The notes below the pieces were generated by a model, which was given only the letters and a program-made list of their open reading frames with translations, did not search any database and was not told where the DNA came from. From positions 1 to 64,000 of the forward strand of contig JACMPQ010000098.1 in the NCBI GenBank assembly GCA_014377425.1: a DNA stretch of 64,000 nucleotides, written 5' to 3'. A program made the translations under genes and the position numbers. This document shows, one piece after another, positions 40,395-48,690 of this stretch. Source of the DNA: Microbacteriaceae bacterium (GTDB lineage Bacteria; Actinomycetota; Actinomycetes; Actinomycetales; Microbacteriaceae). Each line of letters opens with the position of its first letter. The first letter of the stretch is position 1.

Positions 40395-41219
40395 TCAGCC
40401 GCCGGAGAGCTCCCGATATAGTTCCGGTCGACGGTCGCCGAAGACATCCGAGAAGTCGGTGAGTGTTTTGTCTTGGGATAACGCCGCGTCGAGCTCTGCC
40501 CAGGCGGTACCGATTCCAGCACCGACGGCATCCACTACCCAGCCGTCCGCGCCGACAATGGTCGTGCCCTCGCTCCACTCAACTCCCCGCTCGGTACCGG
40601 TGCGGTCGGCGCAAACAACGGCCATGCGGTTCACCCGCGCGGCAACAATTCCGATCTGTACCTCCGGGACCCGTTCCCCGGTCGGACGATACACCAACGG
40701 CCAATTGGTCGGCACCGTCAAGATGTCAATCCCGGCAAGCGCTGCGAGCCTCGTCCACTCCGGAAACTCGAGGTCGTAACAGATCATGATTCCGATGCGG
40801 CCGTGGGCGGTGTCGATGGCCAGCGGCGCGGAATTCCCGGCCTGAAAAAATCGCTTTTCCTCGTTCCACAGGTGCACCTTGCGATAGACGCCGAGCACGC
40901 CGCTCGCATCGATCATTACGGCGCTGTTGTAGACCAAGTCGTCGTCACCGAGCTCGGCAAAACCGGCGATCACAACGCTGTTTTCCCGACCGGCGGCAAG
41001 CTGTGCCCACTCCCCGAAGATCGCGGCATCCGCCGGCAGCGCTACCGAGCGAGCCTCCGCCAGAGACTCAAAGACGTAGCCGGATGTCGCCAGCTCCGGG
41101 AGCACCACGATGTCGGCCCCGGCGGCAAACGCCGCCGCAATCGCTTCCGTTGCAGCCGCTTGATTCTCCGCAAGTCGGCCCACGACCGGCGCAAGCTGCA
41201 CCGCCGCGACGCGGGCCAT
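40395..41219 (-). CDS. Carbon-nitrogen hydrolase (nitrilase superfamily)
   Basis: E-K-C triad motifs VVLPELATSGY, YRKVHLWNEEKRFF, GIMICYDLEFPEWTR. Confidence 0.92.
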   Translation of the reverse strand: MARVAAVQLAPVVGRLAENQAAATEAIAAAFAAGADIVVLPELATSGYVFESLAEARSVALPADAAIFGEWAQLAAGRENSVVIAGFAELGDDDLVYNSAVMIDASGVLGVYRKVHLWNEEKRFFQAGNSAPLAIDTAHGRIGIMICYDLEFPEWTRLAALAGIDILTVPTNWPLVYRPTGERVPEVQIGIVAARVNRMAVVCADRTGTERGVEWSEGTTIVGADGWVVDAVGAGIGTAWAELDAALSQDKTLTDFSDVFGDRRPELYRELSGG

Positions 41220-42635: not shown

Positions 42636-43592
42636 TCAACGTCGTTTCTCGAGGAACGTGCCGCCGCCCGGAATCCGGGCGATCCGGTCAGCGGGGTCAG
42701 CCTGCGTGAGAAGAATGCTCTGGGCAAGCCGGGATAGTTCGCGCGTTGCCGGCGAAAGAGTCGCGCCGCGCCGTTTTACCACGGCGATGGTGTCGAAGAG
42801 TGGGTCGGCAAATCCGACCGTACATAGCCCACCAGGGAAGCCGGGGCTTGTCACGATCGCCTGCGACACGATGGTGTCACCGCCGCCCGCGGTCACCACC
42901 CCGAGCGCTGATTCGACCTGCTCCACCTCAACGACCGGGTCGAGGGTTACGCCGGCTATTTGCGCCCGTTCCTGCAATTGTCGCCGGGTCGGATCCCGCC
43001 AGCCGTAATGGGCGTCGTAGAGCACCAGTTTGCACTGTGCCAGAGCTTCGATCGTCATTGGCACCGTGGTGCGCGTCGGATCGGCCGAAACAAAAAGCAC
43101 CTCGCTGCGAATCAGCGGGGTGACTTCCAATCCTTCGGAGTCGATTGGCAAGACCACGAGCCCCGCCTCAAGCTTTCCCGCGCTGACAGACTCGGCTACT
43201 TCCACCGAGTTCAGCCCCACGGTTTTGAGCCGAACATCCGGATACCGCCGGTGAAAGGTCTCAATCAGCTGCGAAAGAAAGAAGTAGTTGGCGTTACGCA
43301 GCAAGCCAAAAACCGCGACGCCGCCGGTGAGGGAGGTGAGCGAGCGCAACGAAAAATCGGCCTGTTCGGCGGCTAATACGGCCTGCTCTGCCCACGGCAG
43401 CAGTCCGGAGCCGGCGGCGGTCAGTGAAAGCAGACGTGGTCCGCGCGCAAAAAGCTGCAGACCGTATTCCTCTTCCAGCCGGCGAACCAATTCGGAGATC
43501 GAAGGCTGGGTCATTTTGAGGTCCGCTGCGGCAGCGGTGAAACTTCCCAGCCGGGCCACGGCCAAAAATGCGCGAAGCTGGTTGAGGGTCAT
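42636..43592 (-). CDS. LysR-family transcriptional regulator
   Basis: MTLNQLRAFLAVARLGSFTAAAADLKMTQPSISELVRRLEEEYGLQLFARGPRLLSLT. Confidence 0.95.
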   Translation of the reverse strand: MTLNQLRAFLAVARLGSFTAAAADLKMTQPSISELVRRLEEEYGLQLFARGPRLLSLTAAGSGLLPWAEQAVLAAEQADFSLRSLTSLTGGVAVFGLLRNANYFFLSQLIETFHRRYPDVRLKTVGLNSVEVAESVSAGKLEAGLVVLPIDSEGLEVTPLIRSEVLFVSADPTRTTVPMTIEALAQCKLVLYDAHYGWRDPTRRQLQERAQIAGVTLDPVVEVEQVESALGVVTAGGGDTIVSQAIVTSPGFPGGLCTVGFADPLFDTIAVVKRRGATLSPATRELSRLAQSILLTQADPADRIARIPGGGTFLEKRR

Positions 43593-43636: not shown

Positions 43637-44425
43637 ATGACTGTGCCCTCTGCCTGGAACCTTTCGACGAACACCGCCCTGATTAGTGGGGCCGGAAGTG
43701 CCTCCGGAATCGGTTGGGCGGCGGCTCGCGCGCTGGGTGAGCTGGGAGCGCGCGTCGCAATCACTGCCACGACCGATCGCATCCACGAGCGCGTTGCTGA
43801 GCTTCGCGACCTCGGTATTGACGCCATCGGTTTTGTCACCCGGCTCGATACCGAAGCTCAGCTCGCAAATCTTACGAAAGAGCTGGCGATCGCGGGGGTC
43901 GTTCCCAGCATCTTGGTCAACAACGCCGGGATGGTGAGCGTCGGGGATGACGGCATGCTCTCCGGCGACATCATGCAGGAAATTGCGGACTGGAATCGTG
44001 GCCTCACCATCAACCTCACCACCGCTTTTTTGCTGACCCGGGCTGTTATCCCGGCAATGCGTGCGGCCGGGTACGGACGAATCATCACGGTTTCTAGCGT
44101 GACCGGCCCGGTGATGGCTTCGCGCGGCGACGTGGCCTATGCGGCGGCCAAGGCGGGCATGGTCGGTCTTATCCGGGCCCTCGCAGTGGATGAGGCGGCG
44201 ACCGGAATTACGGCAAACGCGGTGGCTCCCGGCTGGATTGCCACCGGTTCTCAGCTCGATAGCGAAGAGCAGGAGGGCCATCTGGTTCCCGCGCGGCGCA
44301 GTGGCACCGCTGCCGAGGTGGCCTCCGCGATCGCCTGGCTCGCAACCCCGGGCGCGGGCTACGTCACCGGTCAGGTCATCGTGGTCGACGGTGGCAACAG
44401 CGTCGGTGAGCAGCGACTGCTCTAG
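43637..44425 (+). CDS. SDR-family oxidoreductase
   Basis: NTALISGAGSASGIGWAAARALGELGA; ILVNNAGMVS; YAAAKAGMVGLIRALAVDEA; divergent from lysR. Confidence 0.93.
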   Translation: MTVPSAWNLSTNTALISGAGSASGIGWAAARALGELGARVAITATTDRIHERVAELRDLGIDAIGFVTRLDTEAQLANLTKELAIAGVVPSILVNNAGMVSVGDDGMLSGDIMQEIADWNRGLTINLTTAFLLTRAVIPAMRAAGYGRIITVSSVTGPVMASRGDVAYAAAKAGMVGLIRALAVDEAATGITANAVAPGWIATGSQLDSEEQEGHLVPARRSGTAAEVASAIAWLATPGAGYVTGQVIVVDGGNSVGEQRLL

Positions 44426-44538
44426 GGAGGGAGCGGAAAACGAGCATGACTTATTGCCGCAACGGAGCGAAAATCGCTGCATTCCGTTCGGACTTGCGGT
44501 CATTGACTTCTCGTCGCTCAACCATTCTGGAGACACAC

Positions 44539-44913
44539 ATGTTCACTCCCACAAACGCCTACAGCGGATTCTCCGTCGCTGACATCCCGGCAGCGAAGAA
44601 ATTTTATTCGGATGTCTTGGGCCTCGCCGTCGACGAAAACAGCATGGGTTTTCTCACTCTTCGCCTCGAAAGCGGTGCCACCGTTTTGGTCTACGGCAAA
44701 AAGAACCACCTTCCGGCGAGCTTCACCGTGCTCAACTTTGAGGTCGACGATGTCGAAAAGGCGGTCGACGACCTGCGCGAGCGTGGGGTTATTTTCAAAC
44801 GCTACGACGCAATTCAGCAGGATGCCAAAGGCATCATGCACGGGCACGGCCCGGACATCGCCTGGTTCACCGACCCGTCGGGAAATGTCATGTCGGTCCT
44901 CAGCGGCCAGTGA
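44539..44913 (+). CDS. VOC (glyoxalase/bleomycin resistance) family protein
   Basis: AYSGFSVADIPAAKKFYSDVLGLAVDENSMGFLTLRL ... IAWFTDPSGNVMSVLS. Confidence 0.88.
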   Translation: MFTPTNAYSGFSVADIPAAKKFYSDVLGLAVDENSMGFLTLRLESGATVLVYGKKNHLPASFTVLNFEVDDVEKAVDDLRERGVIFKRYDAIQQDAKGIMHGHGPDIAWFTDPSGNVMSVLSGQ

Positions 44914-45054
44914 CCCGGCCATAACCAGCAGCACCTCACCAAGCTGAGGAAGACGCAAACTGCGCAACTGCTGAGCAGAACGAACTTCCCTTGTCGCACC
45001 GGGGTTGACCCCGTAGCTTTGGCCCCCCGAGCGGGTGTTGACAGGGAGGTCACG

Positions 45055-45915
45055 ATGGCAGTTGTGTCGCTAAAACAGGTGCTTGATCGGGCACGGGATG
45101 ATCACTACGGCGTCGCCGCGGTAAACATCTTCAACGATCTCACCCTCGAGAATGTTCTCGCTGGCGCGGTCGAAGCTCGCTCCCCGATCATCATCCAAAC
45201 CTCGGTTAAGACCGTTCGAACCGTCGGCGCCCCCGTGCTGTTTGGGATGTGGGAAAGCATGACCCGAGGCATCGAGGTGCCGGTCACCCTTCATCTTGAC
45301 CACTGTCCCGACCGGGCCGTGATTACCGAGTGCCTTCGCATGGGCTGGAATTCGGTTCTATTCGACGCCTCCCAACTGCCGGTTGAAGAAAATCTTCGAC
45401 AGACCATTGAGGTGGTCGCCGAAGCGCGCCAGTACGGAGCTCACGTCGAGGGGGAAATTGAGGCAATCACCGGGGTGGAAGACGGTCACGGCTCTGACGC
45501 CGAAGCCAGTCGCCAGTCGTTGGAGATTTCGCTCGACTTCATCCGCCGCACCGGGGTCGACGTGTTCGCCCCGTCCATTGGCAACGCGCACGGCGTTTAC
45601 AAGAGCGCCCCGGTGCTGGACTTCGACCGGGTGAGCGACATCGTGGCGGCCGAGCCCATCGCCATCGCCCTCCACGGTGGAAGCGGAATGACAGACGAGC
45701 AGTTCAGAGACCTCATCGCCCGCGGCTGCACCAAGGTAAATATTTCTACCAATCTCAAAATGCTCTACCTCACCTCCAGCCTAAAAAACCTGCGGCAGGC
45801 GGAGGCGGCCAACAAGTGGGATCCCCCGACCGTATTCGCCGCCGTCGCCGCCGATGTACGAGCGCTTACGGTGGAGCTCGCCAGCACCTTTGGCAGCGCC
45901 GGAAAAGCCGGGTAA
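45055..45915 (+). CDS. Class II (fructose-bisphosphate/tagatose-bisphosphate type) aldolase
   Basis: VSLKQVLDRARDDHYGVAAVNIFNDLTLENVLAGA; VTLHLDHCPD; GAHVEGEIEAITGVEDG; IALHGGSGMTDEQFRDLIARGCTKVNISTNLK. Confidence 0.92.
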   Translation: MAVVSLKQVLDRARDDHYGVAAVNIFNDLTLENVLAGAVEARSPIIIQTSVKTVRTVGAPVLFGMWESMTRGIEVPVTLHLDHCPDRAVITECLRMGWNSVLFDASQLPVEENLRQTIEVVAEARQYGAHVEGEIEAITGVEDGHGSDAEASRQSLEISLDFIRRTGVDVFAPSIGNAHGVYKSAPVLDFDRVSDIVAAEPIAIALHGGSGMTDEQFRDLIARGCTKVNISTNLKMLYLTSSLKNLRQAEAANKWDPPTVFAAVAADVRALTVELASTFGSAGKAG

Positions 45916-45917
45916 CC

Positions 45918-46697
45918 ATGCCCGCCCTCATCTTCGACTGCGACGGCGTACTCGCCGACACCGAACGCTTCGGACACCTACCCGCCTTCAACCAGACCTT
46001 TGCCGAGTTCGGGTTGCCTGTGCGCTGGTCGGATAGTGACTACGCCGAGAAGGTCAAAATTGGCGGCGGCAAGGAACGGATGAAAAGTCTGCTCACTGCT
46101 GAGTTCGTGGCAATCACCGGGCTTCCCACCGCTGCAGCCGACCAGCAGGCGCTAGTCGCCGACTGGCATCGCCGTAAAACCACGATTTACACTGAACTGG
46201 TCGGCGACGGACGGATGCCGGCACGCCCCGGCATCCTGCGGCTGGTCGAGGAGGCGCTGGCCGCCGGATTCACCCTGGCGGTCGCCTCCACCTCGGCGGA
46301 ACCGGCGGTTCGCGCCGTGCTCAACCACGTGGTCGGGGAGCAATTGGCCGATCGGTTTCGCGTGTTCGCCGGCGACGTCGTGGCGGCCAAAAAACCGGCA
46401 CCCGATATCTACCTCTTGGCGCTGACCGAGTTGGGCTGCGATGCTGACGACGCGATTGTGGTCGAGGACAGCGAGAACGGTTTGCGCGCGGCGCGGGCGG
46501 CCGGCATCCGCACCATCGTCACGGTCAGTAGCTACACCGCCGAGGAAGACTTCTCGTCGGCCTCGCTCGTGCTCTCCAGTCTGGGCGATCCGAACGGCGA
46601 GGAGGCCACCATCGTCGCGTCAGCCGCCGGGGTGCGCCCCGACCGCTACCTGCGCGCCTCCGACCTCATCGCTCTCCTCGCCACGCCTGCCAGTTGA
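45918..46697 (+). CDS. HAD-superfamily hydrolase (CbbY/beta-PGM-like)
   Basis: MPALIFDCDGVLADTERFGHLPAFNQTFAEFGLPVRWSDSDYAEKVKIGGGKERM; VAAKKPAPDIYLLAL; VVEDSENGLRAARAAGI. Confidence 0.92.
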   Translation: MPALIFDCDGVLADTERFGHLPAFNQTFAEFGLPVRWSDSDYAEKVKIGGGKERMKSLLTAEFVAITGLPTAAADQQALVADWHRRKTTIYTELVGDGRMPARPGILRLVEEALAAGFTLAVASTSAEPAVRAVLNHVVGEQLADRFRVFAGDVVAAKKPAPDIYLLALTELGCDADDAIVVEDSENGLRAARAAGIRTIVTVSSYTAEEDFSSASLVLSSLGDPNGEEATIVASAAGVRPDRYLRASDLIALLATPAS

Positions 46698-46724
46698 ACT
46701 GGGCTCCTGAGCCCAATCTCACCA

Positions 46725-46840
46725 TCACCGCAACCCAACCCAACCCGACCCAAACCCCAATATCCCCACTCTTCCAGCCCCAGCCCAGCCCCAGCCCGAA
46801 TCCAACCCAACCCCAACCCGACCGCCCCAACCCCGAAAGC
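46725..46840. repeat. C/A-rich (caaccc/cagccc)n repeats between HAD and dhaL
   Basis: acccaacccaacccgacccaaaccccaat...cagccccagcccagccccagcccgaatccaacccaaccccaacccgacc. Confidence 0.8.
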
Positions 46841-46846
46841 ACCGTG

Positions 46847-47515
46847 ATGTCCGCCGAATCATCCCCGTCCCCGTCTGGCGATCTCGCGGTCGCCGAGTTC
46901 GTCGTTCGCGTCATTGCCGAAACCTGCGTGGAGAACGAAAAGTATTTTTGCGATCTCGACTCGGTGGTCGGCGACGGCGACTTCGGCTACTCGCTTGCTC
47001 GCGGTTTTGAACAGGTTTTGGAGCACTGGCAAGACTTTGATCGCACCGATGCGTCAACTTTCATCCTGAAAATTGCGACGGCCATCACCAGCCGAATCGG
47101 CGGCACCAGCGGTCCGATCTGGGGCACCGGCTTTCTTCGAGTGGGCATGACGCTGAAGGCAAACCCGGCAATCACAGCCAGCGATGTAGTTGCTGCGCTT
47201 CGCTCGGGGGTCGAGGGCATCAAAAAGCGTGGCAACTCCGACGTCGGCGACAAAACTCTCATCGACGCGCTGGTTCCGGCGATTGACGCCTTTGAGCGAG
47301 CAGCGGATGCCGGCACCGAAGCCTCCGACGCGCTGCGAGCCATGGCAACCGCAGCGAGATCTGCGGCCGAGGCCACCAGCGCCATGCAGGCCAAGCGTGG
47401 CCGCGCCAGCTACAGCGGAGAGCGCAGCATTGGCTCGCCCGATGCCGGTGCTGTCGCGGTTGCTGTGCTTGCCGAGCGCCTCGCCGACACCTGGCCCAGC
47501 CGCCCGACGGTCTAA
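46847..47515 (+). CDS. dhaL: DhaL-type dihydroxyacetone kinase subunit
   Basis: CENEKYFCDLDSVVGDGDFGYSLARGFEQVL; GGTSGPIWGTGFLRVG; AKRGRASYSGERSIGSPDAGAVAVAVL; ORF open upstream to 46694. Confidence 0.9.
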   Translation: MSAESSPSPSGDLAVAEFVVRVIAETCVENEKYFCDLDSVVGDGDFGYSLARGFEQVLEHWQDFDRTDASTFILKIATAITSRIGGTSGPIWGTGFLRVGMTLKANPAITASDVVAALRSGVEGIKKRGNSDVGDKTLIDALVPAIDAFERAADAGTEASDALRAMATAARSAAEATSAMQAKRGRASYSGERSIGSPDAGAVAVAVLAERLADTWPSRPTV

Positions 47516-47694
47516 GGCAACCAGACCGGCAACGGACCAAATACCAGCACGCCGCACCATCTGCAACCCACCACCAAACCGCTCCATCTGCAGCCCGCAC
47601 CACCCGCACCCCACCAAAAAATCGCACCCCACCAAAAAAATCGCACTACCACCCAACACCCGGCACGACCTTTCCCAACGACGTGGAGCCCCGC

Positions 47695-48690
47695 ATGAAG
47701 AAGTTCATTAACGACCCAAAGCAGTTCGTTCCCGAGATGCTGCACGGTCTCGCCCTCGCCAACCCCGACACGCTGCGCTACGTGCCCGAATACAACCTCA
47801 TTCACCGTGCCGATGCCCCGAACGACAATAAGGTCACCATCATTCAGGGCAGTGGGTCAGGTCACGAGCCCGCCCACGTCATGACGGTGGGCCGCGGCAT
47901 GCTCGACGCGGCCTGCCCCGGAGACGTGTTCGCGGCTCCGCCGATGGACTACATCTACGAGACAACCAAGCTCATGTCGTCGCCCAAGGGCGTGCTGCTT
48001 CTGGTCAACAATTACACCGGCGACCGGATGGCGTTCGATATGGCGCAGGAGCTGTCCGAGGCGGACGGCGTGAAGGTGCGCACGCTGTTCATCGACGATG
48101 ACGTTTCGGTACAGGACTCCACCTACACGGTGGGTCGCCGTGGGGTCGCCGGAAACTTTTTCGTCATGAAGGCGGTCGGCGCTGCATCCGAAAATGGTGC
48201 CGACCTCGACGAGCTAATGCGCATCGGCGAGAAGGTCAACTCAGTCACCCGCACGATGGGTCTCGCCCTCACCGCCTGCACCCCGCCGTCGAAGGGTTCT
48301 CCGCTATTCGAACTCGGCGAGGACGAGATTGAGGTGGGCGTCGGCATCCACGGCGAGCCCGGTCGCCGCCGCGACAAGTGGGCTCCGGCCAACGAGCTCG
48401 TCGAGGAACTCCTCGAGGCGGTCGTCTCCGATCTGCCCTTCGCCAGCGGCGATCGGGTGGCACTGATGATCAACGGCCTCGGTGGCACACCGATTAGCGA
48501 GCTCTACTTGCTCTACGGAATCGCCCACGACAAGCTCACCGAGCGAGGCATTACCGTGGGTAGAAACTACGTGGGCGAGTACTGCACTTCGCTCGACATG
48601 GCCGGCGCATCCCTCACCCTGGTGAAGCTGGATGACGAGATCGAGGCGCTGCTCGCAGCCCCGGCCGAGATCGCGATCCGGGTCTTCTAG
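47695..48690 (+). CDS. dhaK: DhaK-type dihydroxyacetone kinase subunit
   Basis: MKKFINDPKQFVPEMLHGLALANPDTLRYV; IIQGSGSGHEPAHVMTVGRGMLDAACPGDVFAAPP; VEVGVGIHGEPGRRR. Confidence 0.94.
   Translation: MKKFINDPKQFVPEMLHGLALANPDTLRYVPEYNLIHRADAPNDNKVTIIQGSGSGHEPAHVMTVGRGMLDAACPGDVFAAPPMDYIYETTKLMSSPKGVLLLVNNYTGDRMAFDMAQELSEADGVKVRTLFIDDDVSVQDSTYTVGRRGVAGNFFVMKAVGAASENGADLDELMRIGEKVNSVTRTMGLALTACTPPSKGSPLFELGEDEIEVGVGIHGEPGRRRDKWAPANELVEELLEAVVSDLPFASGDRVALMINGLGGTPISELYLLYGIAHDKLTERGITVGRNYVGEYCTSLDMAGASLTLVKLDDEIEALLAAPAEIAIRVF

Follow-up and report, generated by a model that had tools for sequence, protein, structure and literature searches.

A set of four genes, encoding a class II aldolase, a HAD phosphatase and the kinase subunits DhaL and DhaK, forms a conserved unit; its gene order is shared by about 58 loci, which belong to Actinomycetota, Chloroflexota, Dormibacterota, Pseudomonadota, Acidobacteriota and Myxococcota. 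In the window, i.e., the whole stretch of 64,000 nucleotides analyzed here, this unit occupies positions 45055-48690. It is tentatively proposed, with somewhat less than even confidence, to be an assimilation operon which would convert glycolaldehyde and dihydroxyacetone phosphate (DHAP) into xylulose 5-phosphate.

Organization of the locus

Six enzymes are encoded on the plus strand, with a divergent LysR gene at the head. This arrangement had been described in the initial annotation, and it is borne out, with the families backed by Pfam and NCBIfam models. The features are as follows:

42636..43592, minus strand: LysR regulator (PF03466/PF00126), divergent from the SDR gene; probably not the regulator of the four-gene module itself
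43637..44425, plus strand: SDR oxidoreductase (PF13561), adjoining the module and probably outside the pathway; no conserved linkage
44539..44913, plus strand: VOC/glyoxalase-fold protein (PF00903, 5.6e-9), adjoining the module and probably outside the pathway; position not conserved
45055..45915, plus strand: class II aldolase, 286 aa (PF01116); proposed xylulose-1,5-bisphosphate (XuBP) aldolase, working in the condensing direction
45918..46697, plus strand: HAD hydrolase of the CbbY (XuBP phosphatase) family, assigned by PDB matches, cap residues and trees; proposed XuBP 1-phosphatase
46731..46834, no strand: C/A-rich low-complexity spacer in the HAD/dhaL gap
46847..47515, plus strand: DhaL, nucleotide-binding kinase subunit (PF02734, TIGR02365, GDGD motif)
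47552..47646, no strand: C/A-rich low-complexity spacer in the dhaL/dhaK gap
47695..48690, plus strand: DhaK, the substrate-binding subunit of the kinase, from a separate group of paralogues (PF02733, TIGR02363); proposed to bind glycolaldehyde

The tight spacing noted earlier holds for the aldolase and HAD genes, which are 2 bp apart, but not for the HAD/DhaL and DhaL/DhaK gaps of 149 and 179 bp, both of which are filled by C/A-rich low-complexity repeats. For the VOC gene, the ATG at 44539 is the probable start codon, since it is preceded by GGAG, resembling a ribosome-binding site, and the N-terminus of the longer reading is unrelated; the SDR/VOC and VOC/aldolase gaps would therefore measure about 113 and 140 bp, respectively. 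Simple scans of the locus detected no promoter of the sigma-70 type, and sites resembling terminators did not exceed the chance level.

Conservation of the four-gene unit

The conserved unit consists of the class II aldolase, HAD, DhaL and DhaK genes, without SDR, VOC and LysR. Chance is excluded for these four genes only, because their order is fixed across phyla. LysR is not conserved with the module across its other copies, which are preceded by GAF-LuxR, GntR or SorC regulators, and the copies compared share neither a transporter nor a sugar dehydrogenase gene. Culturable genera carrying the operon include Cryobacterium and Leifsonia. Literature searches on the operon, on a glycolaldehyde kinase and on phosphoglycolaldehyde, covering mostly freely accessible papers, yielded no account of the operon.

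It had first been proposed that all six genes form a single SDR-VOC-aldolase-HAD-DhaKL polyol pathway. Their adjacency on one strand in the window would fit such a pathway, as would the SDR gene (35%) that precedes the aldolase gene in Compostimonas (L003). Nevertheless, nearly all other loci lack SDR and VOC next to the module, among them that of a genome of the same genus (L091), in which a GAF-LuxR gene lies upstream and the VOC homologue is found elsewhere. This makes the six-gene pathway very improbable. The idea of an unassigned sugar-phosphate pathway is supported for the joined kinase, aldolase and HAD genes, but not for SDR, VOC and LysR.

The HAD protein belongs to the CbbY family

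The best PDB matches of the HAD protein are plant CbbYA (4uav, 1.4e-58), to which it is 48% identical, and R. sphaeroides CbbY (9e-44), with an identity of about 42-44%. It retains the CbbY cap signature (TE..H..FN..F, W, Y, GGKER and H..K), and its sequence places it among the XuBP phosphatases of the CbbY family. The C1-phosphatase activity of CbbY enzymes on XuBP has been assayed, and a high specificity for this substrate is ascribed to them (PMC10212915). In the trees, the HAD protein is bracketed by two assayed XuBP phosphatases, those of plants and Rhodobacter, and family and tree position together suggest a putative XuBP 1-phosphatase. A topology uniting the four RuBisCO-linked CbbYs in a single clade was rejected (p-AU 0.0028), in a sample without cyanobacteria and algae and with some long cbb branches.

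RuBisCO is absent from the host genome, and no match to it was obtained in 16 of the 22 other genomes searched. Without RuBisCO in the genome, XuBP would need another source. Known CbbY/CbbYA enzymes, from R. sphaeroides and Arabidopsis (At3g48420), share the HAD family and the cap residues with the window protein, but they occur in Calvin-cycle organisms, where they remove a RuBisCO inhibitor, whereas the HAD gene of the window is linked to genes for an aldolase and for DhaLK. The finding questions the published belief that XuBP phosphatases are absent outside photosynthetic organisms (PMC9833046).

The kinase differs from other DAK enzymes of the host

Both kinase subunits are well assigned. 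DhaK matches PF02733 (3e-122) and exceeds the NCBIfam cut-off of TIGR02363 (417.8 vs 406.25 bits), while DhaL, with its GDGD motif, matches PF02734 (1.9e-50) and exceeds that of TIGR02365 (180.5 vs 138.3 bits). The catalytic residues H56, D109 and H218 of DhaK, known from PTS-dependent DhaKLM, are retained. Its pocket signature, in contrast, is S52/M62/A80/P82/N104, at positions (such as 62, 80 and 104) which we take to belong to the substrate pocket. The pattern S52, M/L62, A/G80, P82 and N104 was present in 69/69 module DhaKs and in 0/12 comparison proteins; conversely, the residues of DHA kinases, G52, G62 and S80, were found in all 12 comparison proteins and in none of the 69. The G52S and G62M changes may narrow rather than widen the pocket of the module DhaK. 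An AlphaFold2 model of the protein has a mean pLDDT of 84.

The host genome additionally contains a separate, complete dhaKLM on contig C44 and, on contig C6, a DAK-RpiB operon of the erythrulose type. Because the genome has both of these, and because the module pocket is altered in an invariant manner, the module DhaK is probably neither a DHA kinase nor an erythrulose kinase. The earlier suspicion that DHA is not its substrate is thereby supported. The sole EIIA-Man gene of the genome lies within the dhaKLM on C44, so a dhaM gene exists in the genome but not in the module operon, which also distinguishes the latter from PTS-dependent DhaKLM. It had been argued from a missing DhaM that the kinase is ATP-dependent; this argument is not supported, since the genome has a complete dhaKLM and an EIIA-Man domain occurs in 49 of 53 searched genomes with the operon or a sister form, a figure with no baseline from related genomes lacking the operon. 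The phosphoryl donor may thus be ATP or, through the PTS, PEP.

A tetrulose had been favored as the substrate. In such a tetrose route, DhaKL would act on erythrulose, isomerases would lead to erythrose 4-phosphate, the aldolase would form sedoheptulose 1,7-bisphosphate and the HAD protein would serve as SBPase. The TPI and RpiB genes adjoining the module on a Cryobacterium plasmid resemble erythritol-pathway isomerases, and the score of this RpiB with the model for D-erythrulose-4-phosphate isomerase is 118.8 bits; yet the cut-off is 240, and the best matches of the protein are general ribose-5-phosphate isomerase B models. Such an isomerase is absent from the window operon and from most copies, and the DAK of the C6 operon has the ordinary G52/G62/S80 pocket, from which the module DhaK differs. 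The tetrose route thus appears improbable. DAK-type erythrulose kinase operons likewise place a DAK-family kinase within a sugar operon, but they contain isomerases instead of the aldolase-CbbY pair.

The aldolase and the proposed pathway

The aldolase belongs to PF01116 (2.5e-75) but scores under every NCBIfam equivalog cut-off (218.1 vs 343.05 bits for TIGR01859; 202.6 vs 215.6 for the cbbA subfamily). The pathway aldolases form one clade (100/99), separate from KbaY, FBA and the other FBAs of the host genome. FBP-type aldolases can produce XuBP from DHAP and glycolaldehyde phosphate, so the aldolase next to the HAD gene could be the source of XuBP that is needed where RuBisCO is lacking.

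In the proposed pathway, DhaKL would phosphorylate glycolaldehyde to glycolaldehyde phosphate, which the aldolase would condense with DHAP to D-xylulose 1,5-bisphosphate. The CbbY-type HAD protein, as its family and tree position suggest, would then take off the C1 phosphate, yielding xylulose 5-phosphate and rendering the sequence irreversible. In effect, glycolaldehyde, DHAP and one phosphoryl group would give xylulose 5-phosphate and Pi, with no carbon loss and no RuBisCO. We infer both the substrates and this assimilatory direction, which is opposite to the cleavage to DHAP and an aldehyde assumed initially; a CbbY-type C1 phosphatase adjoining the aldolase makes condensation more logical.

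A catabolic ketose 1-phosphate route would come near that initial scheme: DhaKL would act at C1 of xylulose or another ketose, the aldolase would split the product into an aldehyde and DHAP, and dead-end bisphosphates would be cleared by the HAD protein. A natural pathway joining a HAD enzyme and an aldolase in the cleaving direction is known from haloarchaea (PMC9700705), and a designed xylulose 1-phosphate pathway is reported to operate in this manner (PMC5029101). On the other hand, the kinase step would be reversed by a C1 phosphatase of the operon, the G52S and G62M changes hint at a narrower pocket, and no conserved transporter or sugar dehydrogenase accompanies the module; a ketose 1-phosphate route is therefore rather unlikely.

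The haloarchaeal non-carboxylating pentose bisphosphate pathway also resembles the module in its operon of a HAD pentulose-bisphosphate phosphatase and a DHAP aldolase, its glycolaldehyde partner and its lack of RuBisCO. It differs in using RuBP rather than XuBP, in removing the C5 phosphate, in its FucA-type, cleaving aldolase (PF01116 in the module) and in the absence of DhaKL. Synthetic glycolaldehyde shunts, such as the xylulose shunt (PMC6298115), likewise bring glycolaldehyde back to pentose phosphates in a carbon-neutral way, but they are designed and employ another enzyme set. The operon is a candidate natural counterpart of the carbon-conserving shunts that synthetic biologists have designed.

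More tentative still is the broader reading that this is a widespread natural RuBisCO-independent route, in which C2 aldehydes would be assimilated via XuBP without carbon loss, and that the plant enzyme may derive from the aldolase-linked lineage and not from the proteobacterial cbb-operon enzyme. If this is true, XuBP phosphatase has a metabolic role beyond the Calvin cycle. The operon also offers a lead on the origin of the plant enzyme.

Neighboring genes and sister operons

Counted in favor of the glycolaldehyde pathway are the gene order in about 58 loci, the likeness of the HAD protein to assayed XuBP phosphatases, the lack of RuBisCO, the distinct DhaK and the sister operons. Counted against it are the lack of a glycolaldehyde-producing enzyme in the window operon, the failure to find any assayed member of this enzyme subfamily in the literature covered, and the glycerol/DHA genes (MIP, GlpK, DhaK, DhaM) adjoining the module in Dormibacterota and one Chloroflexota genome (L139), which suit trioses as well as C2 compounds.

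These neighbors bear on the main rival, triose assimilation via FBP, which is unlikely. DhaKL would phosphorylate glyceraldehyde (or DHA under other regulation), the aldolase would condense DHAP and GAP to fructose 1,6-bisphosphate, and the HAD protein would be a dedicated bisphosphatase yielding fructose 6-phosphate. The aquaporin, TPI, RpiB and transketolase genes beside the module on the Cryobacterium plasmid agree with this, and glyceraldehyde is accepted by DhaK-type enzymes such as human triokinase (PMC6429413). Against it stand the high XuBP specificity described for CbbY enzymes and the dhaKLM and FBA genes that the host already has, one of the latter beside a gene that reads as GlpX-like.

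The sister operons show no obvious triose logic in one of their forms, in which the same aldolase-HAD pair is combined with an ethanolamine-type kinase and a HisC-like aminotransferase. In another, the pair is joined by FGGY kinases and acetoin-dehydrogenase-type E1/E2 and, in Shinella, also by a phosphoglycolate phosphatase. Either the kinase and aminotransferase or the acetoin-dehydrogenase-type complex could be a source of glycolaldehyde phosphate. On the same aldolase-HAD lineage, DhaLK replaces the kinase and aminotransferase in L173.

A Chloroflexota sister operon considered to be a Calvin-cycle operon with phosphoribulokinase and transketolase was found by Pfam to encode a choline-type kinase, an aminotransferase and a DAO-GCV_T protein. 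Similarly, what had been suspected to be a small aldolase beside the HAD gene of L142 turned out to be a sigma factor.

Gene layout and conserved unit

In the window, all six enzymes lie on the forward strand in the order described by the initial annotation, with a divergent LysR gene at their head:

42636-43592, divergent from the + strand genes, LysR regulator
43637-44425, +, SDR
44539-44913 (likely, with the start codon re-read), +, VOC protein
45055-45915, +, class II aldolase
45918-46697, +, HAD protein
46847-47515, +, DhaL
47695-48690, +, DhaK

Only 2 bp separate the aldolase and HAD genes. The gaps on either side of dhaL measure 149 and 179 bp, both with C/A-rich repeats (low-complexity spacers at 46731-46834 and 47552-47646).

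Loci from other genomes were collected by an aldolase scan of GTDB genomes and by searching genomes of the same family and phylum and of three further groups; the module was placed in them by tblastn, the remaining gene calls there being approximate. A CbbY-like HAD is present in 100 loci, 61 of which also contain DhaL and DhaK. By our own count, the order aldolase-HAD-DhaL-DhaK is kept in about 58 distinct loci, hosted by Microbacteriaceae, Mycolicibacterium, other Actinomycetota, Chloroflexota, Dormibacterota, Acetobacteraceae, Bryobacteraceae and Polyangiaceae. Within Microbacteriaceae the distribution is patchy, the aldolase occurring at no less than 65% identity in 16 of 200 sampled genomes, including that of the window. 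The conserved unit is these four genes. The SDR, VOC and LysR genes are not kept beside them in other loci, which argues against their membership in one pathway and makes the polyol route of six genes, as first envisaged, less likely. Upstream regulators in other loci are often GAF-LuxR proteins, some of which carry fused histidine kinase and receiver domains; GntR or SorC proteins also occur in this position. The LysR may belong with a carbon-nitrogen hydrolase (40395-41219) rather than with the SDR or the module, because homologues of both are adjacent in locus L108 (15053-16797; 61% and 63%). The four-gene operon is real and conserved, and apparently unassigned; no description of it was found in the literature searched.

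The HAD protein and the kinase

The HAD is related to CbbY: among solved structures it is closest to CbbYA of Arabidopsis (E=1.4e-58), followed by CbbY of R. sphaeroides (E=9e-44). Both are described as specific xylulose-1,5-bisphosphate (XuBP) phosphatases that take off the C1 phosphate (PMC10212915). The CbbY cap residues are conserved across all context groups. XuBP phosphatase orthologues have been believed missing outside photosynthetic organisms (PMC9833046). RuBisCO was not found in the window's own genome (97% complete), nor was it matched in 16 of 22 related genomes. In trees leaving out cyanobacteria and algae, and with some long cbb branches, the plant enzyme groups with aldolase-linked HADs, while the Rhodobacter, Cupriavidus and Mesorhizobium enzymes fall outside; constraining these four RuBisCO-linked proteins as one group is rejected (p-AU 0.0028). 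A Shinella HAD encoded in an aldolase operon shares 60% identity with plant CbbYA. Further CbbY-like HADs, at 56-60% identity to that of the window, occur in L141, L142, L144, L145, L146 and L163, where no aldolase or DhaLK was found nearby, on contigs that are in some cases short.

The genome holds three DhaK-type genes: the module copy, one in a complete dhaKLM (contig C44), and, on contig C6, a fused DAK with RpiB downstream. The earlier argument from a missing DhaM to an ATP-dependent kinase is not supported, and the phosphoryl donor may be either ATP or the PTS: an EIIA-Man domain occurs in 49 of 53 genomes searched, a set made up only of carriers of the operon or its sister forms. H56, D109 and H218 are conserved in 69/69 module DhaKs. 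The same 69 all carry S52, M/L62, A/G80, P82 and N104. Not one of these residues occurs in the 12 proteins used for comparison, which comprise DhaK of E. coli, canonical copies and DAKs and all have G52, G62 and S80. Positions 80 and 104 are presumably DHA contacts in E. coli. Together with the separate dhaKLM, these residues make it improbable that the module encodes a DHA kinase of the ordinary kind.

Sister operons and proposed pathway

The aldolases of all contexts form a single clade (100/99), separate from KbaY, FBA and the genome's other FBAs. Type A, as in the window, joins aldolase-HAD to DhaLK; variants have a more distant aldolase (L107, L108, L110 and plasmid L176) or a fused DAK replacing DhaLK (L105, L118). 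Type B, from Chloroflexota, adds a choline/ethanolamine-type kinase, a HisC-like aminotransferase and a DAO-GCV_T protein, and L173 joins a B-type aldolase-HAD to DhaLK. In L148-L153 and L168-L172, also Chloroflexota, the three type B partners form a conserved operon with the class II aldolase and CbbY-like HAD (DAO-GCV_T, kinase, aldolase, aminotransferase, HAD), possibly an unassigned route for methylated ethanolamines. Type C adds acetoin/pyruvate-dehydrogenase-type E1 and E2, mostly with FGGY kinases; the Shinella form further includes a GlpD-like oxidase, TPI and phosphoglycolate phosphatase. With B and C substrates guessed from family membership, the common denominator would be a C2 phosphate: glycolaldehyde phosphate could arise by phosphoethanolamine transamination, tetrulose phosphate ketol cleavage or glycolaldehyde phosphorylation.

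In the window, DhaKL would phosphorylate glycolaldehyde, the aldolase would condense glycolaldehyde phosphate with DHAP to XuBP, and the HAD would release xylulose 5-phosphate and Pi. Direction would come from the HAD step; the cleaving direction initially ascribed to the aldolase is less likely, as is a tetrose route. Triose assimilation via fructose bisphosphate is the strongest rival, because glycerol/DHA genes adjoin the module in Dormibacterota and in locus L139. Assimilation via XuBP is the best-supported reading, if a tentative one that falls somewhat short of even chances. Among described pathways, the non-carboxylating pentose bisphosphate pathway of haloarchaea comes closest in logic; it runs the opposite way, with an aldolase of a different type and with loss of the other phosphate group (PMC9700705); designed glycolaldehyde shunts serve the same purpose (PMC6298115).

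On Cryobacterium plasmid pA10BH1 (L176, NZ_MN657133.1, 7202-19946), the module lies near a Tn3 transposase and a recombinase, with an aquaporin, a GlcG/HbpS-like heme-binding protein, TPI, RpiB, a split transketolase and GntR. It is possibly a mobile, nearly self-contained version, whose added genes could together return xylulose 5-phosphate towards DHAP. In Shinella sumterensis (L182, CP132317.1, 9350-28966), the aldolase-HAD pair sits inside a polyol-type cluster with an FGGY kinase, a glycerol-type ABC transporter, a GlpD-like oxidase, an acetoin-DH-type complex, a transaldolase-like protein and phosphoglycolate phosphatase.
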